A stretch of 64,000 nucleotides of DNA, from the NCBI GenBank assembly GCA_963556695.1, contig CAUWAG010000003.1, positions 5,890,001 through 5,954,000 of the forward strand, in the 5' to 3' direction. Source of the DNA: Anthostomella pinea (Eukaryota; Ascomycota; Sordariomycetes; Xylariales; Xylariaceae). This document shows, one piece after another, positions 15,961 to 54,313 of this stretch; position 1 is the stretch's first letter, and each line of letters begins with the position of its first letter. The notes beneath the pieces were generated by a model. It was not told the origin of the DNA, did not search any database, and was given only the letters and a program-made list of their open reading frames with translations. The translations under genes were made by a program, and so were the position numbers.

Positions 15961-17924
15961 TTATACCTTCCCTTCAACAGTCTCCGCGCGCTTTTCAACA
16001 TCGTCCGAGCTATGCCGGCTGTGGGTATTTGCCGTAGCAGCTTCGCCTACGACGACCTCGCCGTCCACCAGTTCGAAGTCAAGCTGCACCCCCAGCCCGG
16101 GCGGTGGGAAAATCGTATTCAAGAGAAAATACAGCACACCAGAGACAGCATAGCCAAAGAAGAAGGAGATCTGGTACAAGTGGTACCAACCGTCCGAGAC
16201 AGCCGGGCCGCCCACGGCCATGACGAAGCCGGGCAGCGTCCACACCATGCCGAGGAAGTAGGCGACGAACGCCCGCCAGTTCAGCCCGTGCCAGAACCAG
16301 TAGATGCCGTCCGGGGTGTACAGGTCAGGGATGACCCACCTGCACTTCCGCACGACCCAGAAGTCGATGACGAGGATAGATGCTGCCGGGCTCAGGAAGA
16401 CGCCGAACGACGAGAGCACCGTGATGAAGGTGCTGGCTTGAGTGAGAAAGCGCCATGGTTGGGCAAGGACGCCCAGAATGGAGAAGATGATAGACCCCCG
16501 ACGGCGCGACACCCAGCGCGGCAGCAGCATCGCGACGTCCATGCCCTGTTGGCAAATTAGAGTCAGTAATTACTCCTTTGGGACGTTTTGCCGAAATAAA
16601 ATGAAATCTTTATGCGTGGCTCGGGAGCAAAGGCTCTTGACACAGGCTAGAAGAGGGAATTCGCGCCAAGGACATGACCATATGGGGTAATAAGAGATTC
16701 AAGAATGTACATACGGAGCTGACGCAGTTCTGCGTGTAGTTGATGAAGACGGTCACGCTCAGCAAGCCCAGGCCGGCGAAGAAGGTGCCGGCGCGGCAGG
16801 CGGCCGTGTAGGAGCTCTGCTGGACAAATTGCAGCATGATGACCGGGTTCCACTGCACCTCACCGTACAGCTGCGCCGTGGCCGACGTGGTGATGATGCC
16901 GATCAGAGCCACGAGGGTCACGGTCAGGGGCAGGGCGGTCAGCTGCGCGAGGGTCGGCGCGTGTCGGGACTTGGCGTAGCGCGTCCAGTCGCTCACGCGG
17001 TCGCTGCCTCCGGTATACGTCCCCGCGATCGACGTGATGCCCTGGACCATCAGATACCCGACCTGCGAGGACGGCACACTAACAGCCGGCGCGACGAGGT
17101 CGCCCGCGCCTCCGTTGGCATGCACGGCCCAGGCCATGATGCCCAGGAGCGTCGCGCTCGACACCACCAGGTTCGCGACGAGGTAGCGCTGGACGACGTG
17201 CGGCGGAATAAAATAGATGACGGGAAAGTACAACAAAATAAACAGCACGAGGCCGACGAGCTGGGGCGTCGTGATGCCGGCGCCCGCGGGCAGCGTGTTG
17301 GCCAACGTCAAAAAGCTGGGGAAGATGGCGTTCAGGATGATGACGAAGGCCTGCCCGCCAAAGTACATCTGCGTGCCGTAGAAGACGAACGACTGGAACA
17401 CGTTGAGCATTACCACGAAGTATGACCCCCAGAGCCCGAAGGAGGCCCGGGCGAGCGCGCCGTAGCCGAGGTGGTGGATTGCGCCGGCGGCGCCGTTGAT
17501 GTAGGCGCTGAGGGAGGCGATCACGCAGCCGATGACCTGGGGAAGCTTTCTGTCAGGCCATGTTCATGGCATAATCGAAACGAAACGAGACGTGACTTGA
17601 CTTGACTTGACTTGACTTGACTTGACTTGACTTGACTTGACTTGTTGTTTAAGACGAATTACTTACAACCACCGCGCATGCCTGTCCGGCAGTGAGCCCG
17701 ATGCCGATCAGACTACTGCCAATCGTCCAGGATGACAACGAGATGCCGCATGTTCCCCAATAGGCGTAGAACGCCAGCCAGCCGTAGGTGCGCTTGTCAT
17801 GAGGAATAGGGTAGACGTCCTTGTTCCCCCACCGGCTTGTTTTGATAGATTCGAACTCGTCGTCGGTGGGCTTGACCTCGAGCTGCTTGAGGATCTCCGA
17901 GGCGCCCATTGTCGAGTTGTTCAT
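15961..17924 (-). CDS. NCS1-family permease (uracil/allantoin/purine-cytosine type)
   Basis: Exons 17924-17667, 17536-16715 and 16545-15961 join in phase 0 to give 554 residues with about twelve hydrophobic segments. Telltale NCS1 sequence includes RTYGWLAFYAYWGTCGISLS in the N-terminus and TM1, INGAAGAIHHLGYGALARAS, SIAGTYTGGSDRVSDWTRYA, and NYTQNCVSSGMDVAMLLPRW across the second splice. Characterised members take up nucleobases, allantoin, nicotinamide riboside or thiamine with protons or sodium. Intron 1 (130 bp) is largely a CTTGA pentamer array. Intron 2 (169 bp) is an introner-like element shared with the metacaspase gene. The gene is divergent from the GMC oxidoreductase. Confidence 0.92.
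16546..16714 (-). repeat. introner-like element, copy 1 (intron 2 of the NCS1 permease)
   Basis: This whole intron resembles the 158-bp intron at 52813-52970 in the unrelated metacaspase gene. In the + orientation both contain GCAAATTAGAGTCAGTAATT followed by ACTCCTT at one end, and CTCGGGAGCAA(A/G)GGCTCTTG then ACACAGGC(T/C)AGAAGAGG in the middle; both finish near AATGTAC(A/G)TAC at the donor. The AATTACTGACTCTAATTTG block holds the likely branch point (CTGAC) near the acceptor. Phase is 0 here and 2 in the other gene. Similarity runs splice site to splice site and stops at the exons. Confidence 0.88.
17593..17645 (-). repeat. (CTTGA)n pentanucleotide array inside an intron
   Basis: About ten uninterrupted copies of ACTTG/CTTGA fill roughly 40% of intron 1 of the NCS1 permease. 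On the transcribed strand it reads (TCAAG)n. A perfect pentamer array of this length is likely to vary in length between isolates. Confidence 0.95.
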
Positions 17925-50109: not shown

Positions 50110-50223
50110 TGACAAGTGAGGGATTCGAACCCTCGCCTCTTGCGAGAGTAGAATGCTTGTTTCCCATGCACAAAGCTTTGTTCTGCTTGAGTCTACCGCC
50201 TTAGACCGCTCGGCCAACTTGCC
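50110..50223 (-). tRNA. tRNA-Leu(CAA) with intron
   Basis: On the minus strand the acceptor arm GGCAAGT pairs with ACTTGTC (one G-U). The D arm GCCGAGCGGTCTAAGGC is of Leu/Ser type II form. The anticodon stem is GTAGA/TCTAC with anticodon CAA at 50189-50187. A 32-nt intron (50185-50154) follows position 37, as usual for fungal tRNA-Leu(CAA). A long variable arm (TCTCGCAAGAGG) and a canonical T arm (GAGGGTTCGAATCCCTC) complete it. The discriminator base is A at 50110. The CCA end is not encoded, as expected in eukaryotes. Confidence 0.95.
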
Positions 50224-51867: not shown

Positions 51868-53446
51868 TTACATCACGAACAGGATGTTTGTGTCTAAGTT
51901 CCTTAGTATGTGCGCATATATCGATCGTGGTAGGGCTACTAACCGAGCGGGTGACTACACGAAAGCTGAGGCTTCTGCGAGTACTTGGTCTGCAAGACAT
52001 CCCGAATGCTGTTGAGGAGCTCCACGTAGCTCTGCTTGGGGTCCTGCTTGATAGCTGTGATGAAGGCCCACGACATGGCACCAGTAGCCTGCGATGCAAT
52101 GGTAGCATCGGCCGAAGTCTGATCGTCTTTGCTACCGGACCACATGATGACGTCAGCCGGCGAGGTTTTGGTTTTGATGGTCTTCTTGTAACCGTCGTCG
52201 CCTCGGTAAGCGGTCTTGGCGAAGCCGAAGATGGCCTTAGCAACTCCGGCAGTGTCGCCCTTGGCATAGGAAGAGAATGCACTGAGCAGACCTTGGCCGG
52301 CTTCTGCGGCCAGGTTGGGCTCTTTCAGAACACCCTTGGTCGAGTAGATGTAGGGGAGATCGAGGACAGAGCCAGAGTGACAGCTATCGAATATGGCTGT
52401 CAGTCGCACACCTGCGACAAGGGGCCTAACGACGACGTCGTGAAGCTGGTCGTCAACAATGTGGCCGGCTTGCTTGTAGTCGACGGGGTAGATGACCTCG
52501 TCCGAGCCATCCTCCTCGTCTCCGTCCGTGTCCTCAGTCTGTCCGCCGTGGCCGGAGTAATGCAGGAACAGAGAATCGTTGGGCCTGGCTCCGGATACCA
52601 ACCACTCCATAGCGCGGATGATGTTGGCTTTGGTTGGTTGCATGATTGGGTCACGCTGGTCGTCGGTGAGAATAATCATATCCTCCCTCTTATACCCGTA
52701 TCTCTCCATCAGGAAGACAGAGACGTTCTTAGTGTCATTGATGCATCCCCGAAGCTCGCCGTCTTGGCCGAAATAGTTGATACCGATCAGCAAGGCTTTG
52801 CGCTTACCAGTACTTTCGCAAATTAGAGTCAGTAATTACTCCTTTTCCATGAGGAACAGAGAGTCGGAATGCGTGTCTCGGGAGCAAGGGCTCTTGACAC
52901 AGGCCAGAAGAGGAAATTCGCCCTGAGACACGGCCAGAAGGGATAATAGGGAACTCTAAAATGTACGTACCAATTGGAGTACTGAAAGGTATAGCCATCC
53001 GGTGCTCCATGGCCGAATCCCTGTGGGGCCGAGGGCGGAGGCGGCCCAGCCCGATGTTGCCCCCCGTAGCCCTGGACGGGAGGGCCGTTCAAAGGATATC
53101 CGTACTGGTCCAGGCCCTGGGGTGGCGGGTGCGAGGGGGCTGGGAAGCGGTTTGAACCCTGGTGATGCGACGGGGGAGGGCCGCCTTGTGGAGGATACTG
53201 ATTATAGCCTTGTTGCTGGTAACCCTGTTGATGGGGAGGTGGTCCTCCCGGGGGTCCGTACTGACCATAACCATGTTGCTGCGGAGGCGGTGGTCCTCCC
53301 GGAGGTCCATACTGGTCGTACCCGTGTTGCTGCTGCGGTGGGTATTGATTGTATCCTTGTTGCGGAGGGGGAGGTTGATAGCCACCCGGGTAGCCCCCTC
53401 CGTATCCCCCTCCATAGCCCTGATCGTGTCCTCCCCAGCCAGACAT
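51868..53446 (-). CDS. casA: type I metacaspase
   Basis: Exons 53446-52971, 52812-51944 and 51893-51868 give 456 residues. The prodomain (about residues 1-155) is Gly/Pro/Gln/Tyr-rich ([20 protein letters not shown]). The splice restores [20 protein letters not shown], the start of the caspase-like fold. The catalytic His is in [17 protein letters not shown] (about 247) and the Cys in [15 protein letters not shown] (about 303). The tiny last exon gives the family C-terminus LDTNILFVM. Fungal CasA-type metacaspases are Ca-dependent, Arg/Lys-specific cysteine peptidases tied to stress survival, protein quality control and cell death. Intron 1 (52813-52970) is an introner-like element also found in the NCS1 permease gene. 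The gene appears intact. Confidence 0.95.
52813..52970 (-). repeat. introner-like element, copy 2 (intron 1 of the metacaspase)
   Basis: This intron matches the 169-bp intron at 16546-16714 over its length with small indels. Shared blocks in + orientation are GCAAATTAGAGTCAGTAATT with ACTCCTT, then ATGCGTG(G/T)CTCGGGAGCAA, GGCTCTTGACACAGGC and AGAAGAGG(A/G)AATTCGC. It splits a Cys codon (phase 2), whereas the other copy is in phase 0, so the two were gained independently. The flanking exons are unrelated. Confidence 0.88.
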
Positions 53447-54313
53447 GCTTCGTAAGGTAGAAAGATTGGAGTGTATTTTGAGGCTTACAGTGAGGAGAGA
53501 CAGACTGCTAGCAAGAGACCGAAGCGAGGTGAAGCAATGGGGATCAACGTGCTTTGTATCACTCAGGTGGTGGGAAGAGGAAGATGTCTGCGGCTGACGT
53601 GTGTTGACTGCGGTGATGCGAACAGAGGCGGGAGGCGGGGGGCGATGCAGGTGGGGGAAACTCAGGGTCGTGGGTTTCCAGGGGGCTGCAGGTGGCTTGG
53701 CGCCATCCAATTTAGGGCTGATCAGTGATCTGTTTGCAGCATTGGCGTGGGCGTTGGCGCTGAGGCAAACGACGCGACAGCGCTAATGCATGCCGAGCAT
53801 GGCGCGGGTATTTCTAAACCCAGGCCTGCGACAGTCACTGGCCCGATTTGTGGTCACTCAAGAGTGTAGATGTGGTATATGACTGCCTATTATGTACCTA
53901 CCTACCTGAGAAAGGACAAATAACGAAGTAACGAGATGAAGGGACCAATGTCTCTACAAGCAAACACTTTCATGAGCCTTTCGGTTGACGTGATCCGAAG
54001 AGGCCCATGAGATATGCTGCACGTTTCAGCTGTGCAAGGGTTTAGGTCTGGTCTCTGAGCTGCTTGTACCGGTAGCTCTTTACCCGATTGTCTGGTGTAC
54101 AACTCACATGCAATGATTACAATCTTGGCGACCATCGCCCATCCATTCATGTTTGTCGTTGTAGGTGGGTGTTGGTGGCACCCCATCTCATTCATTAGGT
54201 TGTGCTCACCCCCGTCTTGCAACCCCTCATAAAGCACTGCCCCTCAATTCCCTATCTCAAGTCTCAACGCAGCTTTCAACCAGAAGACAAGGAGAGTTAC
54301 CCTGTCCGTCACC
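53447..54313. promoter_or_regulatory. divergent promoter region, metacaspase and WW-domain genes
   Basis: About 0.87 kb between two head-to-head intact genes. No repeats or extra genes are seen, and no regulatory site can be named with confidence. Confidence 0.5.

Follow-up and report, generated by a model that had tools for sequence, protein, structure and literature searches.

The 64,000-nucleotide stretch of Anthostomella pinea DNA that was analyzed here as a whole (the window) contains two unrelated genes that share one intron sequence. The question is where such introns come from and how they are copied. The two introns and their host sequences are as follows; a slash marks the insertion point in each target.

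16546..16714, minus strand: introner copy 1, 169 nt, GTATGTAC...GCCAACAG (end also given as ATTTGCCAACAG), phase 0, target ctcc/ggca
16715..17563, minus strand: host exon sequence on the 5' side of copy 1, permease (PF02133); the upper limit is that of the stop-to-stop frame rather than a mapped exon start
52813..52970, minus strand: introner copy 2, 158 nt, GTACGTAC...TGCGAAAG (end also given as ATTTGCGAAAG), phase 2, target attg/tact; 3' end shifted by 1 nt to AG
51939..52812, minus strand: host exon sequence on the 3' side of copy 2, metacaspase (PF00656); the lower limit is that of the stop-to-stop frame
52971..53782, minus strand: host reading frame on the 5' side of copy 2, encoding the N-terminal metacaspase part, rich in proline and glycine; the upper limit is that of the stop-to-stop frame

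The local alignment score of the two introns is 122, and none of 1000 shuffles scored above 26, which bears out the homology from donor to acceptor proposed in the original prediction. The coordinates, the minus strand, and the differing phases were confirmed, and the identical block near the acceptor is present, at 28 bases rather than the 27 given earlier. The hosts are unrelated, as had been claimed, with Pfam matches to a permease in one and a caspase domain in the other. The PF02133 match crosses the joined junction of copy 1, and the metacaspase match begins 4 residues past the junction of copy 2. Xylariales proteins are the closest matches to the metacaspase exon, with that of Biscogniauxia marginata best (92%) among the 120 matches listed, where A. 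pinea is absent. The prediction had referred to mobile introns described in several Dothideomycetes; A. pinea is a Sordariomycete (Xylariales), not a Dothideomycete. At Rfam gathering thresholds, neither intron had a match and the whole window contained one tRNA gene (50110-50223, minus strand), which is possibly intron-bearing given its 114-base span.

Genome searches were performed with either intron as the query, and 40 of 86 and 40 of 91 candidates were scored. Patterns made from three parts of the intron were found at 118, 50, and 62 places, and the reversed controls at 27, 0, and 0; for the first pattern, 100 of the 118 places were among the matches listed. Merging gave 125 candidate places. 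The DNA of 103 of them was matched to a profile HMM, resulting in 99 hits, with 4 fetched places giving no HMM match. The remaining 22 were left out, their support being 3-mismatch matches to one 18-mer alone, for which the reversed control gave 27 hits. The 100 rows examined are the 99 hits, two of which are halves of one copy, and C11:130137, which was added later. When 10 truncated or irregular rows were excluded, 90 full-length copies remained. The search with each intron proposed in the original prediction thus yielded copies beyond the first two, and the many genome-wide copies it expected were found: about 100 in the 53.7 Mb genome, spread over contigs and in diverse hosts. The actual copy number is probably somewhat higher, since 22 weak places were left unfetched and 18 of the 118 pattern places were unlisted.

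The family introns are about 160 nt long and include a donor (GTATGTAC), a branch-point-like CTGAC, and a 3' end of their own. The identity of each copy to its nearest neighbor has a median of 0.90 and a maximum of 0.98, which indicates recent copying. Three copies (C2:6978947, C14:863233, and C16:1641225) have the donor variant GTCAGTRMATT in place of GTATGTACATT. Two bodies are found with the 3' end of another group: C10:1069304 has the body of a CG-ended group described below and C12:127491 the body of a GAG-ended group, and both end in TACCAG. These mixed combinations suggest that copies may exchange sequence near the 3' end. Other irregular arrangements were also observed. Two copies (C16:3191405-3191558 and 3191666-3191820) are separated by about 100 bp and appear to share a gene, and the copy at C3:2247033-2247335 is interrupted in mid-element by about 130 nt of unrelated DNA, possibly a nested insertion.

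The borders of the 90 full-length copies were then compared. The 3' ends were set by an HMM rule, and four 5' ends were lengthened by 1 or 3 nt. The donor is GT in 89 copies and GC in 1; the acceptor is AG in 82 copies, at the predicted end in 74 of them and reached by a shift of 1-4 nt in 8, and CG in the other 8. The GT/AG borders inside genes that had been anticipated therefore hold for most copies and fail on the AG side for the 8 CG-ended ones.

When the flanks were joined at the element borders, the sense frame was open for at least 20 codons on each side in 82 of 90 copies (best of three frames), and in the other 8 the frames were not open on both sides. The shifted joins (1 or 2 nt) were still open in 59 and 52 of 90, so in coding DNA as GC-rich as this, an open frame by itself is a weak control. 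The summed codon score was 646 for the exact joins; it dropped to 76 and 91 when the downstream exon was moved by 1 and 2 nt, and to -6 when the intron was retained. The antisense strand was open in 52 of 90 and scored lower in 76 of 90. All three phases are used by the 82 open joins (19/32/31). A random sample of 27, taken solely from the 75 open-join copies without a CG end, gave 13 Pfam matches and 14 hosts without a match; 12 of the 13 include the junction, one of them below the Pfam cut-off, and the exception is the metacaspase of the window. In a ketosynthase host, the match stops at the intron (residue 122 of 190), and paralogues such as C14:91458 and C16:6317285 continue across.

By structure, these elements form an introner family whose members are predicted to be spliced. 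The introner-like identity assigned in the original prediction is backed by the copy number, the borders (AG in 82/90), the seamless joins, the use of three phases, and the lack of a duplication signal described below.

Splicing normally requires AG at the 3' end of an intron. The eight exceptions end in TTG[A/C]CG and are 87.5-98% identical among themselves, with TTTGCTTGACG (TTGACG) at the 3' end of five and TTTGCTTGCCG (TTGCCG) at that of three.

CG-ended copies: C2:7531119, C4:2034982, C5:4060722, C5:4093174, C5:4199422, C6:335675, C11:130137, C14:2411810

Their distance from the CG end to a conserved TTTGC is the same as that for most AG ends, and none of the eight has an AG between CTGAC and the intron end. 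A genome-wide pattern search with up to 2 mismatches, which more diverged CG copies could escape, returned the eight along with an AG-ended copy and an unrelated match. The 2-mismatch hit at C5:4197835 was rejected as a further CG copy because family sequence is absent around it. The gene for 2-dehydropantoate 2-reductase holds two family copies, one with a CG end (C6:335675) and one with a TAAAG end (C6:336151).

The genome was assembled from long nanopore reads, with Racon and Medaka used for polishing, and short reads are unmentioned in the available part of that account (PMC10763133), so base-calling or assembly errors were considered as a source of the CG ends. This is very improbable: eight loci concur in two variants, a copy with the same body (C10:1069304) reads TACCAG, and the coverage is given as about 80x (PMC10763133).

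The host genes of the CG-ended copies were examined at the GT...CG joins. In seven of the eight hosts the frame stays open through 20 codons either side of the join, and in seven of the eight a homology match covers it; the junctions of C11:130137 were judged by eye, and one host piece entered the Pfam scan after manual trimming. The joins are gap-free at the junction against PDB homologues for a nitrilase, a T2 RNase, and the 2-dehydropantoate reductase, the last with a gap 3 residues upstream. In a sedolisin (tripeptidyl peptidase) host, also aligned to a solved homologue, the conserved Y-SGGGFSN block begins at the join, which follows a gap by one residue; none of the 30 best homologues has a gap within 5 columns of the junction (120 matches listed, A. 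pinea's own absent). Three more hosts have a Pfam match over the junction: a luciferase domain, MFS_1 (below the curated cut-off), and fungal rhodopsin, in which just two residues precede the junction.

These copies might instead be unspliced at CG, being either recent insertions that disrupt their hosts or introns spliced at a downstream AG to give shortened proteins. The missing AG from CTGAC to the end in 8/8 copies is in keeping with this, as is the youth of several nearly identical copies, some with 1 private substitution; with so few private changes, an intact host frame says little for the youngest ones. The published A. pinea reductase model also fits an in-frame AG 63 nt into the downstream exon. 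However, that model is without 21 conserved residues, and it is the sole exception among the best 120 of 789 matches, of which 119 keep at least 20 residues of the stretch that follows the junction. The gap is probably due to a gene predictor that required an AG acceptor; according to the available main text, from which the term RNA-seq is absent, the genome was annotated by ab initio predictors and homology (PMC10763133). Splicing at the first AG past the join would put 7/8 hosts out of frame. The reductase gene shows no disruption over 334 codons and the sedolisin frame is open over 594 assembled residues, despite 7 private substitutions and 3 private indels in the reductase intron and 6 and 1 in that of the sedolisin. 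An unspliced or downstream-spliced state is an unlikely account of the eight copies.

The open frames in 7/8 hosts, together with the two hosts followed intact over most or all of the gene, make it most likely that the CG-ended introns are still excised, precisely after CG, and have multiplied in that state. Their removal from mRNA is deduced from the genome sequence, and for the youngest copies the argument is weak. Loss of Prp18 was considered as a cause of CG use and was rejected, as the Prp18 and Slu7 domains are both encoded in the A. pinea genome.

Insertion occurred between T and A (T/A) in 23 of 90 copies, compared with 243 of 7631 (3.2%) same-phase positions of the same flanks (p ~7e-15). 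GTAC, ATAT, GTAT, and ATAC are the commonest insertion contexts or among them. The preference is strong in copies ending in TACCAG (10/26), GAG (5/14), and CG (5/8), and weak in those ending in TAATAG (1/11) and TAACAG or CAACAG (2/17). Both the T/A preference and the CG subfamily are detectable from the genome-wide copies, beyond the pair in the window. A proto-splice site preference for AG before the insertion point was rejected, as the upstream exon ends in AG at just 5/90 sites. Exonic adenosines meet the U5 loop in splicing, according to the available part of PMC10711555, which would favor A at -1. Selection on splicing of this kind was rejected as the cause of T/A, since A at -1 is depleted (8/90); an exonic-adenosine preference could contribute to the A at +1.

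No convincing target-site duplication was found across the 90 copies when exon-exon, exon-intron end, and intron-exon repeats of 2-10 nt were compared. Among the 21 comparisons, one gave p = 0.007, one p = 0.04, and the others higher values, and none is convincing once 21 tests are allowed for. Compared from position 12 towards the middle, the two consensus ends agree as inverted repeats in 14 of 20 positions; in the individual copies the inverted-repeat score exceeds the 99% shuffle level in just 6/90, with a mean of 7.3 compared with 6.0 for shuffled sequences.

These features bear on a DNA-level origin, in which a MITE-like non-autonomous element with imperfect inverted ends is inserted at T/A by a transposase or nuclease, the splice signals are incidental, and selection clears the antisense and unspliceable copies. 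The T/A preference and the weak inverted repeats would fit such a DNA-level step. T/A, for which exon-splicing preferences mispredict position -1, is the main point for it. The multiplication of CG-ended copies without an AG acceptor is also explained in this way. The absence of a duplication signal in 21 comparisons and the low terminal-repeat scores of the individual copies argue against it, as do the 82/90 sense-strand open coding joins. The one copy seen in clearly non-coding DNA, as judged by eye, is C14:725383, which has a truncated 3' end. A MITE-like origin is considered possible but rather doubtful.

RNA folding gave a mixed result. Overall, folding is modestly better than that of shuffled sequence (mean z -1.26), with z < -2 in 28/90 copies (40 shuffles each). 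Of the two introns for which the original prediction proposed a hairpin check, the copy at 52813 folds stably (z -2.8) and the copy at 16546 does not (z +0.8); as a hallmark of the family a stable hairpin holds in part only. The eight CG-ended copies range from z -1.3 to +1.3. A near-terminal stem, in which consensus positions 5-11 would pair with 156-162 and positions 15-19 with 150-154, can form in most copies (77-86 of 89-90 for each pair, in a count made without a control).

Spread by copying of the excised intron RNA, including that of the GT-CG subfamily, is the explanation we consider reasonably probable on these genomic data. The family copies would be spliced out of pre-mRNA, and the excised RNA, held by the weak near-terminal stem, would occasionally be written back into a nick or break of a transcribed gene. 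The young eight-copy subfamily without AG has the same exact borders and would have multiplied while being excised after CG. Insertion of excised intron RNA, by reverse splicing or by capture in a break, is discussed for related fungi in the accessible parts of PMC8469720 and PMC12403724. Such RNA-insertion models fit the family because of the sense-strand coding bias, the seamless borders, and the lack of duplications. RNA-based copying is given somewhat better odds than DNA transposition. For the CG-ended copies, we lean slightly towards the view that self-copying ascomycete introns with a preference for T/A lost their AG, are still excised exactly after CG by a spliceosome with Prp18 and Slu7 kept, and reached eight copies in that form.

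The nearest known systems are the sister (stw)introns and cropped sister introns of Hypoxylaceae and Xylariaceae, which belong to the same fungal order as A. pinea. As described in the available parts of PMC8469720 and PMC12403724, they likewise comprise tens of similar introns in unrelated genes, on the coding strand only, seamless and without duplication. Their inverted-repeat ends are able to pair in RNA, as the weaker near-terminal symmetry of the A. pinea family may also allow. The A. pinea copies differ in being single introns of about 160 nt in which no stwintron structure was noticed. Kinship through common motifs was not supported, as neither the sister-stwintron palindrome TTTCTAGAAA nor the NTIRE-10 sequences published for one Xylaria cluster (GTATAAAAAC, GTTTTTATGT) was found in any of the 90 copies. 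The available parts of both papers report no exon-side base bias for the sister introns, in contrast to the strong T/A preference here, and make no mention of CG ends.

The introner-like elements of Dothideomycetes, another fungal class, are also near-identical, recent introns in unrelated genes (PMC4457414, in the part available). Their AG/GY insertion preference, as cited in the accessible text of PMC8469720, is not seen in A. pinea. The introners surveyed across eukaryotes are likewise multi-copy intron families in genes, and the ascomycete families of that survey are without TIRs or TSDs, according to the available part of PMC9860276; the A. pinea family has weak near-terminal symmetry and no TSD. 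For non-canonical ends, the nearest system is the dinoflagellate Amoebophrya, whose introners also break the GT-AG rule and have inverted repeats; over 60% of its introns are non-canonical, with direct repeats over the borders (PMC7789003, in the part available). In A. pinea, by comparison, GT is kept and the 3' end alone is odd, in 8/90 copies and in a fungal host. No report of a fungal CG-ended introner was found in the literature covered, which was mostly titles and abstract openings with few subscription papers or preprints, and the same literature gave no paper linking introners with Anthostomella.

The origin and copying of new spliceosomal introns in fungi are disputed between RNA-based and DNA-based models. 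Both can be tested directly on a family that clearly prefers one target, shows no duplications, and includes a recently multiplied non-AG subfamily. The RNA model requires that the CG copies are excised exactly at CG, whereas the DNA model needs no such excision. The CG subfamily also bears on the strictness of the 3' splice-site rule, and its introns are a source of wrong gene models, as in the published reductase.
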